Below, piece after piece: positions 7,647 through 19,515 of a stretch of 46,699 bases of DNA. Both the position numbers and the translations under genes were made by a program. The stretch covers positions 1 to 46,699 of the IMG/VR virus record IMGVR_UViG_3300025168_000151; one strand, 5' to 3'. Source of the stretch: a virus. A model generated the notes under the pieces. It had not been told where the DNA came from. It was given only the letters and a program-made list of their open reading frames with translations, and ran no database searches. Position 1 is the stretch's first letter. Each line of letters starts with the position of its first letter.

Positions 7647-8104
7647 TGCACATAAGAAAGCTTACAACTAGCGATGAAGACTTCAGGAAAGTAGTTGATT
7701 TTCTTATAGAAAATTTTGTCCCTGAACATAATATGGGAAGACTTAGTGCTGCTGACTTGCATCTTAAGAAAGCTCTTAACTGGGTTATTCTTAATATTAA
7801 AGAGGCTGCTTTTGTTGTCGAAGATGATGATGGCAAGGTTGTTGGTTCTATTGGTTTGAACAGAACCTCGCCTTGGTATTCTGATGCAGAGTATATTGCG
7901 GATGGTTGGATCTATGTTCTTCCAGAGCATAGGAAGAGTGGCGTGGCAGGTATGCTGGTTGATAAAGCAAAAGAATTTGCCGAAGAAAAAGAACTGCCTT
8001 TAATTATCGGTATCTTTAGCAAAGAAGATGCCATTGCTAAAGCGGGTATTATGAACAAACTTGGATTGATTACGGTTGGCGGATTATTCGCCGCAGGAGT
8101 TTAA
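7646..8104 (+). CDS. GNAT-family N-acetyltransferase
   Basis: A 152-residue protein with the GNAT layout: beta strands at 'AAFVVEDDDGKVVGSIGL' (about 54-71), then 'GWIYVLPEHRKSGVAGMLV', which contains the acetyl-CoA pyrophosphate-binding R-K-S-G-V-A loop at about 96-101, and a C-terminal 'GL' strand region. It would transfer an acetyl group from acetyl-CoA to an amine; the substrate is unknown. It is embedded between two virion protein genes with a TAATG junction, so it is expressed late. It may modify a virion protein or a host target; context alone cannot decide. Confidence 0.85.
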   Translation: MHIRKLTTSDEDFRKVVDFLIENFVPEHNMGRLSAADLHLKKALNWVILNIKEAAFVVEDDDGKVVGSIGLNRTSPWYSDAEYIADGWIYVLPEHRKSGVAGMLVDKAKEFAEEKELPLIIGIFSKEDAIAKAGIMNKLGLITVGGLFAAGV

Positions 8105-8106
8105 CT

Positions 8107-9123
8107 ATGTGTGGTGGCGGCGGCGGTGGCGGTACAAATACCGTACAACAAACGATACAAGAGATCCCAGAACAGTTAGCTCCTTACTATGACGAGCTGC
8201 TAGGGCGGGGTACGTTTCAATCTTTACAGCCATATACTCCCTATCCTGAGAAGCGGCTTGCTGAGTTCTCGCCATTTGAGCAGGATGCTATGGCAGGAAT
8301 TGGTGCGCTTGCTGAGACGGGAACTCCAGAGGCAATGCAGTCTGCTATAACAGGCAGTGAGTATGCTGCCTATAAAGATCCTTATGCCGAGGCGGTTAGA
8401 AGCGACCCTATTACTGCGGCTATGATAAATACAATAGGCGCGGCACAGCCTGAGCAAGTAGGAACTCTGGGGGATATCAGCACCTATGACACCTACATGA
8501 GTCCTTATCAGCAGAAAGTTACCGACATAGCCAAGCGCGAGGCATCGAGAGCTTCTGAGATTCAAGGTGCAGATATAGGACAGCAAGCAGCATTGGCTGG
8601 TGGCTTGGGAGGGTATAGAGAAGCTATCATGCAGGCAGAGCGTCAGCGTAACTTGGGTCAACAGCTTTCTGATATACAAGTTCAGGGTGACCAACAAGCA
8701 TTTGAGTCAGCTCAGAGAGCCTTCGATACGGACAGAAGTGCTAGGGAGTCTGCCGCTCAGTTGGGTATACAAGGTTATGGTGCGCTTCAAACTGACATTA
8801 CAGGTCGTTTGAGGGCAGCTCAACAGGCTGCTGATCTTGCGTCTAAAGATCAAGCAATGGAAATTACAAGACTTGGTGAGCTGGCTGGTGCTGGTCAACA
8901 GCAGAGAGGATTGTTGCAGCAGAGCTATGACACTGGCTATCAAGATTTCTTACGCCAACAAGCGTTCCCTCTGGAGCAATTATCCCTTTACAGTAATTTG
9001 GTTAGAGGCTTGCCTATGCAGCCGGGAACCACACAAGTTCTATATGGTCAGCAGCCTACAATGGCACAGCAATTACTGGGCAGTGGTATAGCTGCGGCTG
9101 GTTTATATGGCGCAACTCGTTAG
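8107..9123 (+). CDS. Gln/Ala-rich internal virion protein candidate
   Basis: A 338-residue protein starting with Met-Cys and seven glycines, followed by 'TNTVQQTIQEIPEQLAPYY'. It is rich in Gln, Ala and Gly and predicted to be almost wholly helical, with a 'SPYQQKVTDIAKREASRAS' segment in the middle. I recall proteins with this opening (Cys-Gly run then a proline-led helix) next to ejection genes in marine podoviruses. It probably forms part of the internal core or ejectosome. It lies two bases after the acetyltransferase stop. No catalytic motif is visible. Confidence 0.65.
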   Translation: MCGGGGGGGTNTVQQTIQEIPEQLAPYYDELLGRGTFQSLQPYTPYPEKRLAEFSPFEQDAMAGIGALAETGTPEAMQSAITGSEYAAYKDPYAEAVRSDPITAAMINTIGAAQPEQVGTLGDISTYDTYMSPYQQKVTDIAKREASRASEIQGADIGQQAALAGGLGGYREAIMQAERQRNLGQQLSDIQVQGDQQAFESAQRAFDTDRSARESAAQLGIQGYGALQTDITGRLRAAQQAADLASKDQAMEITRLGELAGAGQQQRGLLQQSYDTGYQDFLRQQAFPLEQLSLYSNLVRGLPMQPGTTQVLYGQQPTMAQQLLGSGIAAAGLYGATR

Positions 9124-9133
9124 GAGATAGAGT

Positions 9134-11098
9134 ATGTATAACATCCTTGAGGTTGAGGATAAGATAAAAGGTTTCCCTGATCAGGCTTTGATGAAAGAAG
9201 CCCAGTTTCCTAGCGGCGATGTGCCGCAGTTTCTTATTGTCTCAGAATTGCAGCGCCGAAATGAAATGCGTAAGTCTTATTCGGCTATGCAAGAGCCAAC
9301 GCAAACTGTCCCGATTGCCCAGCAGGTGGTGGCAGAGGCAAGTCAAGGCATTGCTGGGATGATGGGTGGCAATCCAATGCTTCCTCCTACTATGCAAGCT
9401 CAGGCTCCTATGCAAGCCCCTATGCAGGCTCCTATGCAACGTCCTATGCAGCCTCCTATGGCTGCTCCTATGCAGCCCCCTATGGCTGCTCCTCAAGCCC
9501 CTGCTGGGATAGTTGGTATGCAAGAGGGAAGGACTGCTCCAACTTTGAGAAGAACAAGTAATCAAGTTTCTGCTGTTGATGCAGCTATTGAAAGTTTGAA
9601 ATCTCAAGGTAGGGATTCCTCCGTATATTCTCAGGCTGAATTGAGACGAATGGGAGAAGATATACTTGGGACGGATACCATTCCTTCATTAGTTAGTCAG
9701 GGATACAAGGAGTTTCGCCCCGATCTTGGTGATACCTATGAGCTAGAATCAATGGATGATAACTTTTTTAGATCGCCTAACCATCCTTTTAATAGGGCAA
9801 AGGATGCCATCGCTAGTGGGGTGTCAACGATGACTTCACCTATGGGCGGCACATCAGTTGCTAGAGACATAGAGGGACAACAAAGAGTTGAGCTAGGAGA
9901 ATCCGCTAGACAGGAAGGAGAAAGAGTAGCAAAATTTATTAGAGAAGATGAAGATCTTGGGGTTCTGGGAGAAGTCCTGACAGGTGGCTATGGTTTAATG
10001 CAAGATAATCTAAGTAGACCTATATCAAGTCTCAAGTCTATGGTTAAAGACCTTCCTTATATGTTTGCAGGAACCCCTTTAAATGCATCAACAGGAAATA
10101 CAATTGGATCATTTGATTCTGGGGACATGACTGCTGAAGAGTTGCAGAGTCAATTAGTTGCTCTTGACCAAGGGCAAGTCCCAACAGATCAAGTTGATAC
10201 CAAGGCTAATGAGATAGTCATAAACCAAGACGCTCTGATGGGGTCTCAGTTAGGATATGGATTTAATCTACCTCCTAGCTCTAGTCGGGCTGTGGCTACG
10301 GACATATCTAGACTTGTCGATAAAGAAATGTCTCTTGATGGAATTATGTCTGGTATTAACGCACAGGCTGGTAAGCTACCAGAGATCCCCGGAGGAGCAG
10401 ACTTTTCCTCCATAGCTAAGGCTAGAGCCAATCGTGGCGAGGCGGCAGCTACAAGGATGGAAGAGCTTGTTGAATCTATCCAGAGCAAAGCTAAGTCGGA
10501 AGCTCTTAATATGGCCCTTATAAACATTGGGGCGGGTATTGCCGGAGGTGATCTTGCGGGTGGTTTAGATCGCGCAGGTTCAGCCGCCGGGAAAATAGCT
10601 AGTGATGCTAGGAAGTCTACTCAAGCTCTTGAGCTTCAGGGTATTTCTATGGCTGAAGAAGCAGCTAGGTCTGGAGAAGATATACAGATTCAGGAAGCTC
10701 TTAGTGACTTACAAAGGTTCTCTGTTGAACAGGGTGTTGCGAAAGATCAGAGAGATTATAATCTTGAGCTTATTAAGAATACGTCAAATCGTGATATTAA
10801 TTTTAAAAAGCTTGCGGCTGACATTGCTCAATCAGAAAATATCAGCAAAAGAAGCGTCCTTAGCTTGATTGGTACTGTCATTAAAGAAGAAGCTGACAGC
10901 GCGAAAAATTTAGGGGAGCAGTACAACGCAGGAGAAAGAGCTTTGAGATTGTATAGTCCATTTGCTGGTCTTTTTGGGCTTGCCTCTTTGTCCCCGGATG
11001 ATTTGACAAATGCGCTTGGGCAGATTGGATCTGTTCAAACTACAGCCGCAACTAATACTGGTGATTTAGCTGCTGAATTAGAGGCTTTTATAGACTAA
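9134..11098 (+). CDS. Large helical internal virion protein candidate with Met-Gln-Pro repeats
   Basis: A 654-residue protein. The N-terminus ('KIKGFPDQALMKEAQFPSG' then 'SELQRRNEMR') is one I associate with marine phage internal proteins. Residues about 87-125 are a run of 'PMQAPMQ/PPMAAPMQ' repeats, likely a flexible linker. Residues about 440-500 hold a long helix ending in a Gly/Ala-rich hydrophobic segment, and the rest is charged helix. Its stop codon overlaps the ATG of the giant gene (TAATG), so the two are coupled. I infer a DNA-ejection or core role. Confidence 0.65.
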   Translation: MYNILEVEDKIKGFPDQALMKEAQFPSGDVPQFLIVSELQRRNEMRKSYSAMQEPTQTVPIAQQVVAEASQGIAGMMGGNPMLPPTMQAQAPMQAPMQAPMQRPMQPPMAAPMQPPMAAPQAPAGIVGMQEGRTAPTLRRTSNQVSAVDAAIESLKSQGRDSSVYSQAELRRMGEDILGTDTIPSLVSQGYKEFRPDLGDTYELESMDDNFFRSPNHPFNRAKDAIASGVSTMTSPMGGTSVARDIEGQQRVELGESARQEGERVAKFIREDEDLGVLGEVLTGGYGLMQDNLSRPISSLKSMVKDLPYMFAGTPLNASTGNTIGSFDSGDMTAEELQSQLVALDQGQVPTDQVDTKANEIVINQDALMGSQLGYGFNLPPSSSRAVATDISRLVDKEMSLDGIMSGINAQAGKLPEIPGGADFSSIAKARANRGEAAATRMEELVESIQSKAKSEALNMALINIGAGIAGGDLAGGLDRAGSAAGKIASDARKSTQALELQGISMAEEAARSGEDIQIQEALSDLQRFSVEQGVAKDQRDYNLELIKNTSNRDINFKKLAADIAQSENISKRSVLSLIGTVIKEEADSAKNLGEQYNAGERALRLYSPFAGLFGLASLSPDDLTNALGQIGSVQTTAATNTGDLAAELEAFID

Positions 11099-14000
11099 TG
11101 AAATTTAATTATGAGAAGGCCGTAGCTGCTGGTTACAACGATCAACAGATTGCAAGTTTTCTTTCGCCAAAATTAAACTTCAATCTAGAAAGCGCTCTGT
11201 CTTCTGGTTATCAGTATGAACAGATAGTTCCTTTCTTGGTAAGTAATTTTGGTGAGGATGACACAAGCGTTCTTGGTCAGATAAAGGAAACCGCGAAGGG
11301 TGTTCCTCGTGGTTTCGCCAACACTTTCCTTGGGGCTGGCGAAGGTCTGGCTGAGTTAGCTGACGCTGCAACAAACTTCGTGGGCTACGAGGATCTAATA
11401 GATTCTGGCGAGGAGAACGAGTTAGTTCGCCTTGCAAGCGAAGGCAGGGACTATATTAATAAAACGCTAGGAGCAGACGAGCGTTATGAAGATAAATGGC
11501 TGACCAAGCTTGGTGATGCTGTTGGTTCTTTTGCTGGGTTCTTTGTTCCCGGTGGTGCGCTCAAGGCTGTTGGCGCTGGATCTAAACTTATTGGCGGATC
11601 AAGCCTTGCGTTAGCTACAAGCTCTGGTGCTGGAGAGCAAGCACAAAGAATACAGATGGCTAGGCAGCAGGGAATTGATGTCAGTCAGGATCAAGAAGAC
11701 AAAGCTATTGGTTTGGGCGGATTAATTGGAACTAGTGAGGTTCTTGCTCCCCTTAGCTTGCTCAAGAAATTTAGAAGACTTCCTGATAAAGAAGCAGATA
11801 CTTTCTTTTCTCGTGTATCTAGTGCTGTAAAGACAGGTCTTGCTGAAGGTACTCAGGAAGCAACGGCTGGCGCTCTTCAAAGCGCGGTTGAAAAGTATAC
11901 ATACAATGAGAGCCTCCCTCTTGGCGAGACTCTGTATGATCAAGTAATTGAGGACGCAAGCTTAGGTGGTGCTGCTGGTGTAATAGCAGACCTTGCTCTT
12001 GGCAGTTTTTCCAGAAGAGTCAGAGATGGCGCTGCAACAGAGGCTGAGTTTGAGAGAGAGCGTCAGCTAAGAGCAGCCGAAGAGATCCGTCTTGCAGAAG
12101 ACCGTCAAGAAGTATCAGATTATGTAGCCCAGCAGGACAGCACAAACCCTGAGTCTGTTGTTAATGTAGAGGAGATCCTCCTCTTGCCTGCTCCAGATCC
12201 AGTTGATATTCGGACTGACGAGGATCAGGTAAGCTATGCCAGCAACATATCCAACAGTCTTAATTATAACTTCCCTACAGCTACATCGTTCACTTACCGA
12301 ACCAATGATATAACTGACCCAGAAACTGGCGAGGTTACAGGATCAAATTACAATATCGTTGATCAACTTGGTAACACCTACGGCGCTTCTCCAATTACCA
12401 CAAGAGAAGCGGCAGCTACGGTGGCTGGCAGATTGAACGACAAGCTTCTTGACCGAACCTTAAGTAGGTCTGTCAAAGATACTTTAGAAACTTCTCCTAT
12501 TTCATATGACGAGAGATCAACCGAGACTCTTTTGCGTATAGGTAATCGAGTTCTGAACCCTCGTTCAAACTTAATTACAGACATTGAGTTGAACTCCGCA
12601 GCAACAGAGAACATAGATACTCGTGTTGAGGAGGACAGACGAAGACTGTATATAGAATCTTTGCCGCTTGATCAGGCGCTGTACTATCTTCAGGAAGGGC
12701 CGAAACAGAATAGGGCGAAAAGCAAGGCTGAGATGATGCGCTTGCTGTCTCCTACTCAGAGGATCAACTTACGCAGAAGGGAAAGAGGTCTTCCTGAAAC
12801 CAAGTTCTTTACTGTGCAAGAGGCAAGAAGAGAGCTGAAGGATTCGTTTGGTAACCTAGCTAATAAAAAGTTTGAGTCACCGGAAGTCAAAGAAAAAATT
12901 GATTCCTTACAAAACGCTAGGACTTATCTCAATTTAAATGTAAGCAAGAACATTACCCCGGCGCAAATACAAAAGCTGCTTAATGAAAAGAACATTGCCT
13001 CAGACATTAATAGCCCAGAGATAAACGCTCTGGCTCGTAGTTTTGTAGGGGTTAAATCTGTATCTGACATGAATGTTGGAGACAGAAGAGTCTTTTACAA
13101 AAAGATAACAGCCCTGCCGCGCTTAGATAATTCGACTAAGCTTCCCGTATTTGAACTCAAGCCATTTACAAACTCACAATTTATAGCATCTGTTGAAGCA
13201 GTTAATAACACTGGGGATTTCAGCAACGAGACTATATCAGAAGCTGCACAGATTAAGCCTGAAGATCCTCGTTATGAGGATAAGATTGAGTCTATAAGAA
13301 AAGAATTACGCAAGCAGAAAGTTATTAGTAGCGGCAAAGTCCCTGCGTTTGACAGCAGGATCAAGGCAGAAGCAGAACAAATTCCTTTGACGGAAGAAGT
13401 TGAGACCGTCACTGATGAGCAGATTACTCCAGAGGTTGTCGAAGAGGTTGTCGAAGAGGTTGAAGAGCAAGCTGTAAGCCCAGATGTTCTGGAAAGAATA
13501 CAGACTAGCCTGAGAAGTTATCTTGACGCTAAGGGTTTGAAAGAAGTTGGTGTCAATGTGGACTACGCCCTAAGAAATGTGGTGATGGACGCTGACGGCA
13601 ATCTTAGATACGGCATCCGAAGGCGCAAGCTTAATGATGAGTATGAGTCAGCGCCTCAGACAGAGCTTGATAGAGTTTTTATTAAAGAAGAACTTGCTGA
13701 AGATTCTGCTGAAGGGTTCTACTCCCGCGACATGAACCAGATATTCCTAGCTGCTGATAGGCTTGCCAACTTTGAGGGCATGACCGAAGAGCAAATGCAA
13801 TCAGAGCTTGCTTCTATTCTTAATCACGAGATGGTTCACGCAATGCGTAACCTAGATCTCTGGACTGAGAGTGAGTGGAAGATACTCAGCAATGCCGCTG
13901 CTAAGATAAAAAATAGTAACGGGCAGACATATCTTGCTGAAGCCCAATCCCTCTATAGCGACAAAATTCCCAGCATACAGGTTGAGGAATCTGTTGCTAA

Positions 14001-17000
14001 CCTTATACGAGGCACAATTAACGGTAACACTAAGCTTGGCGGTAAGCCCAGAAACTTGATTAACAAGATGGTCAACTTCTTTGAGAGGATCAGAAACTTC
14101 TTACGAGGCTCTGGCTACAGAAGTTTCAATGACATTCTTTCTGACATCGAGTCTGGTGTTGTGGGCGGCAGAGAGAGGGGCGTTGTCAGGACAGCAAGGA
14201 GAGCGCAAGAAGAAGCTGAGTTAGAAAATTTCTGGAATGCTGACTCTGACATTTTGTATTCAAGAACAAAAGCTCCCAAGAAAACTCAGAAAGCCTACAA
14301 GTTATTTAGAATAAATCCCAATGATCCGGGTAAATTGTTTCCATTATATGTAGATTCTAAGACTCCTGTTCCTACGAATAAGTGGGTAACAGCTACAGAT
14401 GGTGGATACAGCTTTCTTTCTGATAATGGTAAGCGGTATACCCCAGCTAAGACAGGAGTGTCTAGGCCAGTAAGTAAGAAAGTTGCGAAGGAAGCTTACA
14501 AACTTGGTTATGTTAAAAATCCTGATGTAAAAACAATTACCGCTGTAGCGTATCGTCCGGGCTGGCACTCTGGAGATCTTCCATCATCTCAGCATATAGG
14601 TGGCATCAGTGAGAACTCTATTGGGAGAAGAAAAGACTTTAGACAAAACGATCAGGTGTGGGCAGAGATAGAAGTTGCTGACGATAGGTCTGATTATTGG
14701 CAGGACTTAGCTAACTCAAGAGCATCTACTGTAAGGTCTGGCCCTAGAAGAGGAATGCTTAATCTTGGTGAGGCTCATTTAACTAACGAAGGTGAAATTC
14801 CAAAGGGTGGTTATTACAGATATAAAACTAACCCAGAGATGGAGGGCAACTGGTTAATTAGCGGTGAGATAAAAATTAACAGGGTTTTGTCTGACGCTGA
14901 GGTAAATAAATTAAATAGAGATGCTGGCAGAACACTTGACTTACCAAGAATAAAGAAAGGTTTAGGCAATAAGTCAGGCCAAAGATTGGACTCTAGAGAT
15001 GTTCTTTATTCTAGAAAGTCTGCCCCCGCAGCCGTAAGCAATATATTCCCCACGGCAAAAAGTAGAAAGTTAGATCCCACAGAGACTGTTCTTGTCAGTG
15101 ATTTTCAAGAGTATATAAAAGACGAGCCATTCAAAAAGAATATGATCATCGTTAAAAGCTATGACGATCTTCGTAAAGATAAAAGTCTAAGGACTGATGG
15201 ACAGAAAGCATTAGCTTTTGTAGATCATATCAAGAATAACTTACTGTATTTATTTGATTCTGTTCCTCCTGAAGTAAGGACTAGATCTTCTAAGTGGTAT
15301 GAAGGCGCTAACCGATTGATGCAGAATCTTGCCGATAAGCACGGCATAAGTTTATCTCAAGCCTCCGCTCTTGCTGCAAACCTTTCACCACAAAAGGATT
15401 GGTACATGAACGCCAGCCTTGCAGAGAGAACAGCAGATATATTCTTTGAGAAGGCCAACGAACCTTTCACTCCTGAGATGGGGAAGAAAGCTAAAGAGCT
15501 TTATGTAAACGCGAAAGCCGTGTCTGCAAAGAAGAAGAAAATTAACAAAAAGATATTGGACGGGATCAAAGGTAAGTCTCTGTCTGATATTATAGCTGAG
15601 GGCGCTACACTTGTTGAGCAGGCTATGTGGATTCGCACTTACGATCAAACATACAATAGTCCTAGCTACCGAATCGTTGCCCCAGAAGGTGATTACCTAC
15701 AGTACGCAAAGACAAAAGGTGGAAACGATGCCCGTATTGCGTGGGGATCGTTTAATGAGATAGCAAAAGGCATCAAGGCTATTTCAGATCCAGACCTTAA
15801 GTCTGTCTCTACCAGTCTTGGTGCAGCCAACAAAGTAAGAAACTTCTACAATAATATCTATGACCCCTCTTCAGAGCTAGGGTTTGTGACAATAGATACT
15901 CACGCTGTTGGAGCGGGTCTTTTACGCCCAGTAAGCGGTGACTCAGATCAAGTAAGTGCAAACTTTGGAACTCTAAAAGGTTCTTCAAGCAGTTCTAAAA
16001 CTGGGTATCGGGGCATGTACCCCTTCTATGAAGAAGCCTACAAGCAGGCAGCAGCAGAGCGCGGCGTACTTCCAAGAGAGATGCAGTCTATAACGTGGGA
16101 AGCTGTGCGCGGTTTGTTTTCTCCTTCTTATAAATCCAGTAAAAAGAATGTTGCGTTTGTCAACAGTGTCTGGAAAGATTATAATCGCAAGAATATTGAT
16201 CTTGATGAAGCAAGAGAGAGGATATTAAATCATGCCGGACGTATCACAAATCCAGACTGGACAAGATCCGATAGTGGATCAGTTGCGGAAGATGCAACTT
16301 CCAGTTACGAGAGCCAACTACCTAGCAGTGGCGTACCCGGACAGACCGGACAACTTCCTACTGGAGGCGGAAGAAGAGGCAATGTTGCCGCAACAACTAC
16401 AGATGAATCAAACGTCCTAGCGGCGCAGAAATCTGAGGCAACAAACAGAGAATCACAAAGGCTCAGGGTTGGGAATCACGTTGATGTCCTTGAGTCTAGG
16501 AGAGCGCCGGGATCGGTTGCCTCTGCTACTACTTATGAAAACCTCAAGACTCAGGCAGAAAACAGGGCGTACAACGCTGGTGACTATGCCTCCCCTATGT
16601 CTTTCGAGACTCCCACTTATACCTACCAAGAGGCTGGCCTAGCTGGCCCAGCTCGTGGCTTCTTGTATCAAGTTGCTGACAAGCTGCTTGGCCTTAAGTA
16701 TGTCGAAGACTCGATCAACAAAAAGAGAAGAGATGCGGGACTCAAGGAGATACCTACCTTAGCATCTCCTTACAAAGGCGAGGAGCGCGTTGCGGGAATA
16801 GTTGGGGGCAAGATAAGGGACTTTGATCAAAACCAGCTACGTCCATTCGTAGAGTCTATGGTTTCCAATGATGTGTCTCGAAAGGAGATGGATGATTTTC
16901 TAATCTTGAGACATGCTGTTGAGCGCAATGCCAGAATCAGAAGCATTAACCCAGCCATTAAAGAGGCCGGAGCAGGGATGTTGGATGGTCAGGCTCTTAC

Positions 17001-19515
17001 TGATACCTATGTTAAATCCAAAATGGCATCTCTTTACGGTATGCAGTGGAACGATACTACTGGTTCTTGGACTGGCGGTAATGGCAGAGCGCAAGTTCTA
17101 AACTCCTTAGCTAGTACGTTTGATGGCTTCACTAAAGGTACTCTAACAGAGTTGCGTGATGGCGGTCTGATCTCTGCTCAGGATTTCAATACGCTTTCTA
17201 GATACTACAAGTATTACGCCCCGCTCAAGGGCAAATTAGTTGAGGATGATGTTGCCTCTGAGCTTTCTCAGGGATCTACCGGGATAGGCGGCAGCTATAC
17301 CATTGTTGGTCAGGAAGTTAAGACTGCTATGGGAAGACAGAGCGAGGCATTCTCTCCGCTCTCTACGGCGATTGCTGATAGAGAGAGGGCTGTTGTTCGT
17401 GCTACTAAGAATAAAGAGATAGGTCAGAATCTTGTAGAATTGATACGCGCCAACCCTAACCAAGAGTTTTGGGAAGTCATAGATAAAGATAACCCTGTGT
17501 ATAAGAGGGCTTTTAAAACTAGATATGTATACGCTGGTAAAGATCCATCTATACCTGTTGGTACTGTCCGGTCTGATTTGACAGGAGTCAAAGACAAGAG
17601 TGCTTGGTTTAAGAAAAAGATTGTAGAGCCATCAGCATCGTCACCCATTCTTCGTGATGATTTACTTGGCGTTAAAATAGATGGTGAACAAGTTTATATA
17701 GATATTCGTGGTGATGAGAGGCTAAGAAACTCTCTTATGAACCTTGATGCTGACACTATGAATTTCCTGACTAAGTCTTTGTCAAAAGCAAGCAGGTTCT
17801 TGTCGTATGTAAATACTAGTCTTAACCCTGAGTTTGTTGTTGGTAACTTTGCCAGAGACATACAGACAGCAATCAATAATATTATTGGTGAGCAGACGAT
17901 GGTGGGCGGGAAGGCTCTGAAAACCAAGGGTCTTAAGCGTAGCGTTATTAAAGAGACTGTCCCTAGTATCAAAGATTTTTACAAGGGCTACCGGAACAGC
18001 AAGAATAGAACTGCACAGCAGATCAAAGACTTTGATGAGTATATAAAGTCTGGCGCTAAGACAGACTGGTTTGTTTCTAGAGCGCCTGATCAAGTTTCAA
18101 GCACCATAGATAACTTGATTGAAATGCAAAAGGGTACATTCTCAGGTAACTTTAGGAAGAGATACGAAAATATTAGAGACTTTGTCGATGATACAAATTC
18201 CGCCGTTGAGAACGGTGTGCGCTTCGCTACCTTTAAGAAAGCCAGAGACTTGTTTGTTGAAAATGGTATACCAAGAGATGAAGCTATCGCCCAAGCTGCT
18301 ACCCTTGCTAAAAACCTGACTGTAAATTTCAATAGAAAAGGTGAAGCAGGCAATCTTCTGAATAGTCTTTACATATTCTTCAACGCTTCGGTGCAGGGTA
18401 CGGTTAATTTTGCTCGTGGCTTGAACGTATTTGACCCAGAGTCTTCTCGTAAGAAGCAAGCTATGGTTGGTTCTATGGTTGGATTCGGTGCGTTAATGGC
18501 GTATATGAATTCCCTTCTTAGTGACGATGATGAGTCTGGGCGGTCTTACTATTCCCAGATACCCGCATTTGAGAAAGAGCGAAACATTATCATAATGAAA
18601 AGTATCTTTGATCCTGACGCGCCGCCTGAACAATACTATAAGATACCTCTTCCTTACGGATACAATGTCTTTCATGTCCTTGGCACATCAATTATGGATT
18701 CGATGTCCGGCGCTCAGTCTAAGGAAGAAGCTGCGGCATCTTTAGTTACCTCATCTCTAGGGTCATTCTCTCCAGTAGGTTTTGGTTCTTCAGATAATTA
18801 CTTCAATGCCATTGCGAGGGGCATAACTCCTACTGTTGGTCAACCAATTGTTGAAATACTTGCTAATGAAAATTACTTTGGTAGTCCTGTATATTCTGAA
18901 AGTCAGTATGGTCAGGATGTTCCTGCTAGTCAGATGGCATTCCGCACAACACCAGAAGTATTTAAGAGGTCAGCTAAATTTTTAAACTCAATATCTGGCG
19001 GTGATGAAAGTGAGGGAGGGATGCTAGATTTTTCTCCTGATACTATGAATCATATGTTTAAGTTTGCTCTTGGTGGCACAGGTGCTTTCGGTATTCGGAG
19101 TATGAATGCGCTAGAGAAAGGGCTTACAGACCTTGAGGTTACTCCCAATGAAGTTCCTTTTTACAGAAAAATAGTTGGTGAGGTTAATGACTTCGATCAG
19201 CAGACAGATTTTTATGATCGCAAGGATACATTAGACGCTAAATACAGGCAGTCAAAAATAGAAACCGGGACAGACAGAAGAGGTTATGTTATTAAAAACA
19301 AAAACTTCCTTCGTCTTCGCCCGGTTATGAACAATGCTCAAGCAAGAATAAGAGCATTAAATAAAAGACTTAATTTGCTTCAATCAAGAGCAGCGGATTC
19401 AACAATTAATGCTATAACTTTTGCTCGTGAACAAGAGAAGATACAGGAGCAGAAATCTCAGATTTATAAGCAGTTTAATCGCAGGTACGATTCTCTTATT
19501 GGCAGGAACCAATAA
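11098..19515 (+). CDS. Giant polyvalent protein with zincin-like peptidase and several phage polyvalent domains
   Basis: A 2805-residue protein. In order: two copies of an 'A..(A/S)GY..(Q)QI..FL' repeat (about 3-50); Gly/Ala-rich membrane-active helices (60-310); a zincin-like peptidase with 'HEMVH' at 910-914; a domain around 1060-1290 ('KAYKLFRINPNDPGKLFPLY', 'GYYRYKTNPEMEGNW') known to me from other phage polyvalent proteins; a domain around 1340-1700 with 'ANLSPQKDWYMN' (1427) and 'IDTHAVGAG' (1598); a Ser/Gly/Thr-rich bridge at 1711-1774 overlying an out-of-frame ORF; and a helical half (1830-2805) with a 'SLNPEFVVGNFARDIQTA' segment near 2240, similar to LPD38. Polyvalent proteins are thought to enter the host with phage DNA. 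The last 20 bases overlap the convergent nuclease gene. Confidence 0.88.
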   Translation: MKFNYEKAVAAGYNDQQIASFLSPKLNFNLESALSSGYQYEQIVPFLVSNFGEDDTSVLGQIKETAKGVPRGFANTFLGAGEGLAELADAATNFVGYEDLIDSGEENELVRLASEGRDYINKTLGADERYEDKWLTKLGDAVGSFAGFFVPGGALKAVGAGSKLIGGSSLALATSSGAGEQAQRIQMARQQGIDVSQDQEDKAIGLGGLIGTSEVLAPLSLLKKFRRLPDKEADTFFSRVSSAVKTGLAEGTQEATAGALQSAVEKYTYNESLPLGETLYDQVIEDASLGGAAGVIADLALGSFSRRVRDGAATEAEFERERQLRAAEEIRLAEDRQEVSDYVAQQDSTNPESVVNVEEILLLPAPDPVDIRTDEDQVSYASNISNSLNYNFPTATSFTYRTNDITDPETGEVTGSNYNIVDQLGNTYGASPITTREAAATVAGRLNDKLLDRTLSRSVKDTLETSPISYDERSTETLLRIGNRVLNPRSNLITDIELNSAATENIDTRVEEDRRRLYIESLPLDQALYYLQEGPKQNRAKSKAEMMRLLSPTQRINLRRRERGLPETKFFTVQEARRELKDSFGNLANKKFESPEVKEKIDSLQNARTYLNLNVSKNITPAQIQKLLNEKNIASDINSPEINALARSFVGVKSVSDMNVGDRRVFYKKITALPRLDNSTKLPVFELKPFTNSQFIASVEAVNNTGDFSNETISEAAQIKPEDPRYEDKIESIRKELRKQKVISSGKVPAFDSRIKAEAEQIPLTEEVETVTDEQITPEVVEEVVEEVEEQAVSPDVLERIQTSLRSYLDAKGLKEVGVNVDYALRNVVMDADGNLRYGIRRRKLNDEYESAPQTELDRVFIKEELAEDSAEGFYSRDMNQIFLAADRLANFEGMTEEQMQSELASILNHEMVHAMRNLDLWTESEWKILSNAAAKIKNSNGQTYLAEAQSLYSDKIPSIQVEESVANLIRGTINGNTKLGGKPRNLINKMVNFFERIRNFLRGSGYRSFNDILSDIESGVVGGRERGVVRTARRAQEEAELENFWNADSDILYSRTKAPKKTQKAYKLFRINPNDPGKLFPLYVDSKTPVPTNKWVTATDGGYSFLSDNGKRYTPAKTGVSRPVSKKVAKEAYKLGYVKNPDVKTITAVAYRPGWHSGDLPSSQHIGGISENSIGRRKDFRQNDQVWAEIEVADDRSDYWQDLANSRASTVRSGPRRGMLNLGEAHLTNEGEIPKGGYYRYKTNPEMEGNWLISGEIKINRVLSDAEVNKLNRDAGRTLDLPRIKKGLGNKSGQRLDSRDVLYSRKSAPAAVSNIFPTAKSRKLDPTETVLVSDFQEYIKDEPFKKNMIIVKSYDDLRKDKSLRTDGQKALAFVDHIKNNLLYLFDSVPPEVRTRSSKWYEGANRLMQNLADKHGISLSQASALAANLSPQKDWYMNASLAERTADIFFEKANEPFTPEMGKKAKELYVNAKAVSAKKKKINKKILDGIKGKSLSDIIAEGATLVEQAMWIRTYDQTYNSPSYRIVAPEGDYLQYAKTKGGNDARIAWGSFNEIAKGIKAISDPDLKSVSTSLGAANKVRNFYNNIYDPSSELGFVTIDTHAVGAGLLRPVSGDSDQVSANFGTLKGSSSSSKTGYRGMYPFYEEAYKQAAAERGVLPREMQSITWEAVRGLFSPSYKSSKKNVAFVNSVWKDYNRKNIDLDEARERILNHAGRITNPDWTRSDSGSVAEDATSSYESQLPSSGVPGQTGQLPTGGGRRGNVAATTTDESNVLAAQKSEATNRESQRLRVGNHVDVLESRRAPGSVASATTYENLKTQAENRAYNAGDYASPMSFETPTYTYQEAGLAGPARGFLYQVADKLLGLKYVEDSINKKRRDAGLKEIPTLASPYKGEERVAGIVGGKIRDFDQNQLRPFVESMVSNDVSRKEMDDFLILRHAVERNARIRSINPAIKEAGAGMLDGQALTDTYVKSKMASLYGMQWNDTTGSWTGGNGRAQVLNSLASTFDGFTKGTLTELRDGGLISAQDFNTLSRYYKYYAPLKGKLVEDDVASELSQGSTGIGGSYTIVGQEVKTAMGRQSEAFSPLSTAIADRERAVVRATKNKEIGQNLVELIRANPNQEFWEVIDKDNPVYKRAFKTRYVYAGKDPSIPVGTVRSDLTGVKDKSAWFKKKIVEPSASSPILRDDLLGVKIDGEQVYIDIRGDERLRNSLMNLDADTMNFLTKSLSKASRFLSYVNTSLNPEFVVGNFARDIQTAINNIIGEQTMVGGKALKTKGLKRSVIKETVPSIKDFYKGYRNSKNRTAQQIKDFDEYIKSGAKTDWFVSRAPDQVSSTIDNLIEMQKGTFSGNFRKRYENIRDFVDDTNSAVENGVRFATFKKARDLFVENGIPRDEAIAQAATLAKNLTVNFNRKGEAGNLLNSLYIFFNASVQGTVNFARGLNVFDPESSRKKQAMVGSMVGFGALMAYMNSLLSDDDESGRSYYSQIPAFEKERNIIIMKSIFDPDAPPEQYYKIPLPYGYNVFHVLGTSIMDSMSGAQSKEEAAASLVTSSLGSFSPVGFGSSDNYFNAIARGITPTVGQPIVEILANENYFGSPVYSESQYGQDVPASQMAFRTTPEVFKRSAKFLNSISGGDESEGGMLDFSPDTMNHMFKFALGGTGAFGIRSMNALEKGLTDLEVTPNEVPFYRKIVGEVNDFDQQTDFYDRKDTLDAKYRQSKIETGTDRRGYVIKNKNFLRLRPVMNNAQARIRALNKRLNLLQSRAADSTINAITFAREQEKIQEQKSQIYKQFNRRYDSLIGRNQ
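16232..16420 (+). CDS. Overprinted small phage protein inside the giant gene
   Basis: A 62-residue ORF in the +1 frame relative to the giant gene. Its sequence looks more protein-like than the overlying frame: 'DPIVDQLRKMQLPVTRANYL' then 'AVAYPDRPDNFLLEAEEEAM' and 'LPQQLQ'. I recall separate small proteins of this pattern ('LP.T..NYL.LAY', acidic tail, 'LPEQLQ') in many phages, between genes homologous to the two halves of the giant protein. An AGAGAGGA Shine-Dalgarno lies about 9 bases before the ATG. The giant frame here encodes only low-complexity Ser/Gly/Thr/Pro residues, as expected for the passive frame of an overlap. Function unknown. Confidence 0.6.
   Translation: MPDVSQIQTGQDPIVDQLRKMQLPVTRANYLAVAYPDRPDNFLLEAEEEAMLPQQLQMNQTS

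Follow-up and report, generated by a model that had tools for sequence, protein, structure and literature searches.

The window analysed here, a 46,699-nucleotide stretch of viral DNA (IMG/VR record IMGVR_UViG_3300025168_000151), has as its largest gene a giant reading frame at 11098–19515 on the plus strand, encoding a protein of 2805 amino acids. Wholly within it, on the same strand and in its +1 frame, lies an intact ORF of 62 codons (16232–16420, plus strand) that opens with ATG and encodes 62 amino acids; the giant gene reads straight through it, and the same nesting is found in L001, the nearest relative, and in many other relatives. This raises the question as to whether the small ORF is a gene in its own right or a chance ORF and, if a gene, what ties it to the protein in which it is embedded. 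The initial annotation took it for a real overprinted gene and the giant frame above it for filler, and suggested a homologue search and a comparison of selection in the two frames as checks. Openness by itself is weak evidence for a gene: when the giant frame is resampled synonymously, the +1 stretch over the small ORF stays stop-free in 34% of the draws, so that a chance ORF is rejected on conservation and not on openness. The +2 frame is open in none of 86 nested loci.

Conservation, as read from sequence comparison, is strong evidence for the small gene. L001 retains both frames, and its small protein is 84% identical to that of the window. Among giant-frame codons that encode identical residues in the two phages, silent changes are found in 5 of 54 over the small ORF and in 1041 of 2388 elsewhere (Fisher p 7.6e-8); the small ORF is the only part of the giant gene with such a synonymous collapse. 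Out of 2,740 segments of 62 codons, the one with the lowest synonymous change (4 changes, 16255–16440) falls on the small ORF, the minimum in segments clear of it being 10. A control +1 ORF of the same 62 codons in the same giant gene (16913–17101) contains two stops in L001, and its synonymous change is unremarkable. Judged by this evolutionary evidence, the ORF at 16232–16420 is a real protein-coding gene; together with its homologues, the synonymous collapse bears out the overprinting that the initial annotation had proposed, and more broadly than stated there.

The two frames can also be set against each other in 14 other pairs of phages, which are related to one another and not all fully independent. 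In the pooled counts, changes silent in the giant frame that alter the small protein occur at 0.32 of the flank silent-site rate, changes that alter the giant protein and are silent in the small one at 0.57, and doubly silent changes at 0.96 (nine changes only); just two changes in total introduce a stop into the small frame. The suggested two-frame comparison (0.32 versus 0.57) thus finds the small frame better conserved than the giant frame in these pairs. Over the overlap, identity of the small protein versus the giant frame is 0.80 versus 0.70 and 0.70 versus 0.57 in the two closer bins. In these comparisons the inner frame is thus under stronger purifying selection than the outer one, as expected of a nested gene. 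The claim that the giant frame is mere filler has a mixed fate. Between the window and L001, small-altering changes run at 0.26 and giant-altering changes at 0.14, against 0.15 in the flanks, so that in the window lineage the Ser/Gly-rich giant-frame stretch is not mere filler; in other lineages the giant frame is indeed relaxed over the overlap.

The small gene also carries the signals of its own start. A Shine-Dalgarno-like element read from the sequence, GAGAGAGG (16215–16222, plus strand), lies 5' of the small-gene ATG, as had been proposed; its computed anti-Shine-Dalgarno duplex is -8.2 kcal/mol, compared with a mean of -4.9 kcal/mol expected under giant-frame synonymous resampling. Across the family the average is likewise -8.2 versus -4.9 kcal/mol (Wilcoxon 5e-12), a test that is somewhat inflated because starts were partly picked by Shine-Dalgarno score, with a single ATG candidate in 53 of 68 overlapping tree loci. 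The 113 chosen starts comprise 108 ATG, 4 GTG and 1 TTG codons. As both the ATG and the Shine-Dalgarno are encoded inside the frame of the upstream domain described below, the small protein is probably started independently, by internal initiation.

The search for homologues of the 62-residue protein, using scans with the upstream domain and with the small protein itself, yields 169 distinct DNA copies encoding 154 distinct proteins, mostly in IMG/VR phages; the uncultivated phages that carry it number well over a hundred. The pattern noticed at the outset, ‘LP.T..NYL..AY’, proves to be the core of this family, with consensus PxTRENYLxLAYP. The accompanying claim of likeness to known short phage proteins does not hold for the PHROGs, Pfam and named phage records searched, and the resemblance is therefore to an uncatalogued family: 69 family members have no match in PHROGs, two have chance-level Pfam matches to Agd3_C only (best E 0.0036), a family profile finds nothing convincing among PDB sequences, single-sequence searches of PHROGs, Pfam and named phages return nothing significant, and neither does a six-frame search in which three members were run against 50,697 phage records. 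A profile search does find one divergent copy in a named phage, Rhodobacteraceae phage LS06-2018-MD07 (L016:9965-10177), where it is unannotated and the sole CDS annotated at that place is the large one. In 295 bacterial genomes of one order, a profile search gives one match, in a genome already known as a carrier. Prophage-like loci of this kind lie in Jannaschia seohaensis DSM 25227 (L097: DUF7178 ORF 7996-10119, small gene 9617-9802) and Pseudofulvimonas gallinarii DSM 21944 (L099). No paper was found on a small gene nested in a DUF7178 gene. The family is thus uncatalogued in the protein-family libraries searched. Gene finders usually discard genes nested inside others, and the family, despite its 169 distinct copies, has therefore stayed outside those libraries. 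The window's small protein is acidic (pI 4.2, net charge -5), with three short predicted helices, in line with a median pI of 4.5 and a net negative charge in 80% of members; its structure is predicted with modest confidence (pLDDT 74), and a fold search with the resulting model gives no match.

The part of the giant protein directly upstream is a DUF7178-type domain with a C-terminal extension (15160–16263, plus strand; residues 1355–1722), beside which the small gene always lies. It matches PF23802 with E 7.5e-22 and 78.6 bits, above the curated cut-off of 27, and all 67 rows of the DUF7178 alignment match PF23802 at the E limit used. Its AlphaFold2 model has a pLDDT of 94.4, and the domain extends some 11 codons into the small gene, in keeping with the initial annotation's view that the upstream domain ends where the small gene starts. 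Invariant in the 67 rows are the motifs SPQ, DW..N, G...K (G221, K225) and DTH (D246-T-H). A fold search of the PDB with this model gives no significant match, the best being AGOG (E 4, probability 0.12, TM 0.36), and the viral proteins that match are uncharacterised. The Pfam matches listed do not include HhH-GPD, which has no significant fold match either. The invariant G-x3-K and D-T-H nonetheless recall the motif of HhH-GPD DNA glycosylases, whose catalytic Lys and Asp are arranged as G-x3-K ... [VI]DTH, and the domain is possibly HhH-GPD-like. No paper mentioning DUF7178 was found.

Downstream, the giant protein continues into a C-terminal module (16468–19491, plus strand; residues 1791–2798) with homology to phrog_14770/616 and an LPD38 domain (PF18857) at residues 2485–2688 that scores 132 bits against a cut-off of 27, as expected of a multidomain polyvalent protein. 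The phrog_14770 homology block begins some 16 codons after the small-gene stop, at residue 1791; a second half beginning soon after that stop had been correctly anticipated. In the N-terminal half, residues ~930–940 contain HEMVHA, a zinc-peptidase-like HExxH motif. A DUF7178-type domain and an LPD38 module also share one very long ORF in L103 and L107, and in L074 (15121-17364) the LPD38-type module forms an ORF of its own, lying 3' of the DUF7178 ORF.

The association between the small gene and this domain is close. A DUF7178-type domain lies upstream in all 169 distinct copies, and in all 91 distinct copies recovered by two scans in which the small protein was the sole query. In 165 of the 169 the small gene overlaps the domain in the +1 frame, and the register is fixed: in the copies laid out, the codon of an invariant domain Trp (motif AGGI..P.W) typically falls on that of a near-invariant Gly of the small protein. 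In the window this point lies at 16258–16261 (plus strand), where TGG at 16258–16260 (giant residue 1721) overlaps GGA at 16259–16261 (small-protein residue 10). The four remaining copies (L040, L104, L106 and L224) are separate genes, from which it follows that the small protein can have a gene of its own. In L040 (2400–2840) the DUF7178 C-terminus carries an additional ART-like domain (VLYHGTNQADLKKL); the small gene comes after it, is unnested and has the same core as the nested small gene of its relative L044. Conversely, eleven loci carry a DUF7178-type domain and no small gene: L014 (zth2-2), L015 (CRP-738), L065, L068, L075, L078, L081, L098, L103, L105 and L107. In most of them the +1 frame has stops, and in L107 it is open by chance, with no family match; the domain can therefore manage without the small gene. 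Based on this linkage, the small gene would be an obligate partner of the DUF7178-type domain, lying in the +1 frame over its end, with its first codons overlapping the domain's last conserved residues, the invariant Trp on the Gly.

Other explanations of the conserved overlap have to be weighed against a nested protein-coding gene. A conserved RNA or DNA element (a recoding signal, promoter or packaging site) might suppress synonymous change without any protein being made, and between the window and L001 total substitution is indeed low over the small ORF, in a dip that extends slightly past the stop codon. In the other pairs, however, substitutions follow a codon pattern in the small frame, whose wobble positions are the freest (in L126/L127, for instance, the three giant positions give 0.21, 0.02 and 0.05); doubly silent changes run at the flank rate and stop changes are almost absent, rates that largely refute such an element, and distant copies share the protein, at 25–50% identity, rather than the DNA. 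This explanation is thus extremely improbable. A programmed frameshift out of the DUF7178 frame, giving a DUF7178–small fusion instead of a free small protein, would agree with the +1 register fixed in 165 of 169 copies. It is nevertheless very improbable, in view of start codons kept together with their Shine-Dalgarno elements and of the separate genes in L040, L104, L106 and L224, which lie in other registers or past the stop codon.

How the overlap is laid out differs between lineages. In a tree of 78 DUF7178 domains, 11 have a domain frame that comes to a stop within the small gene, 21 have one that terminates no more than 600 nt beyond it, and 36 have one that reads on; the small gene is separate in 3 and absent in 7. 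The outcome is decided by small codon changes just after the Gly codon: in relatives with an upstream stop, GGG AAT GAC reads TGG GAA TGA in the other frame, and in the window GGA CAA GAT reads TGG ACA AGA, with no stop. The DUF7178 frame may accordingly stop inside the small gene, end just past it or, as in the window, continue into a large C-terminal module, in which case read-through would yield a fused giant protein with the small gene still intact.

The initial annotation had pictured three ancestral genes, the first of which lost its stop and was fused. The three-gene part is supported by relatives whose upstream gene terminates within the small gene and is followed by a separate gene. 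The LPD38 part of the window, by contrast, has no detectable homology to the downstream gene of the unfused phages (hhalign probability 0.3%), and those three genes are therefore not a simple unfused version of the window's giant gene. As to stop loss, the AU test rejects a single clade of read-through loci (p 0.0008, unrooted tree), so the read-through state has changed more than once; since the tree is unrooted, fusion by stop loss and splitting by stop gain are not polarised. Past the 3' end of the small gene, identity jumps from 71% to 98% in L111/L112, falls from 80% to 54% in L118/L122 and, in L045/L050, rises from 82% to 96–100% and then returns. Such sharp changes suggest that the 3' end of the small gene is a recombination joint, connecting the DUF7178 part to different downstream modules. 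The reverse direction, in which the nested, read-through state is ancestral and was later split by stop gains in the DUF7178 frame, is unlikely though not negligible: on an unrooted tree one change is enough either way, and read-through is the commonest state sampled (36 of 78). Against it, downstream partners differ between lineages and similarity often breaks at the small-gene 3' end, for which repeated joining of modules is a better fit than repeated splitting.

In terms of function, the neighbourhood points to the virion. In unfused relatives the gene order is T7-like: a tail protein (phrog_376) is followed by two smaller genes and then by DUF7178, the small gene and an internal virion protein (phrog_6651). 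In the window the giant gene follows a DNA ejection protein gene, and the N-terminal part of its product weakly matches virion RNA polymerase. Iyer et al. (2017, PMC5512222) proposed that polyvalent proteins accompany the DNA into the host. The gene linkage thus argues for a partnership between the small protein and the DUF7178-type protein within a DNA-ejection module; the linkage, like the coding selection, the register and the overlap states, is itself a computational result. Very probably, then, the ORF is a genuine small gene and an obligate DUF7178 partner lying over the domain end, with its own start and an acidic product that would bind the DUF7178-type protein. Binding would involve the protein made from the same message, and the small protein could act either as a chaperone or adaptor for packaging the DUF7178-type protein in the virion, or by inhibiting and so silencing it in the producing cell.

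That it is specifically an antidote, silencing an injected, DNA-acting DUF7178 enzyme in the producing cell, and not a chaperone or adaptor, is a minority possibility of some weight. The small protein is acidic and its gene is directly downstream, overlapping and always linked; the invariant G221, K225 and D246-T-H recall the motif of HhH-GPD enzymes, and the fold match to AGOG is very weak. An antidote is less easily reconciled with the lack of a significant PDB fold match for DUF7178, with the absence of HhH-GPD from its Pfam matches and with the 11 DUF7178 loci that have no small gene. A binding partner of either kind remains our preferred reading. It is a doubtful extension that an injected DUF7178 effector has the small gene, hidden from the libraries because it is nested, as its obligate regulator, and that different C-terminal modules are swapped at a joint marked by the gene's 3' end.

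The locus offers a clear case of overlap evolution, in which the separate, partly overlapped, nested and nested-in-a-fused-giant states are all alive today, in a fixed register and with both frames measurable. The small protein gives DUF7178, a phage ejection-module domain of unknown function, a partner that can be put to the test, and hidden genes would be worth looking for at the domain joints of other polyvalent giants.

By comparison with the polyvalent proteins (PMC5512222), the window's giant protein is of the same kind in combining LPD38 (PF18857) and DUF7178 (PF23802) beside ejection-type virion genes; unlike in that description, in whose text the word ‘overlap’ is absent, a nested small gene is added. 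The T7-type internal virion protein module is similar in that L060 and L121 carry the pair directly upstream of phrog_6651 and downstream of phrog_376; it differs in that no T7 counterpart was identified for DUF7178 or for the small protein. Nested or overprinted genes are well known in phages, such as Rz/Rz1 of lambda and B, E and K of phiX174. As in those systems, a short gene lies wholly inside another, in a different frame and with its own start and Shine-Dalgarno. Unlike in lambda Rz/Rz1 and phiX174, the small frame here looks older and is better conserved in most lineages, and the DUF7178 host frame varies from a stop inside the small gene to full read-through, with one fixed register kept across diverse phages.
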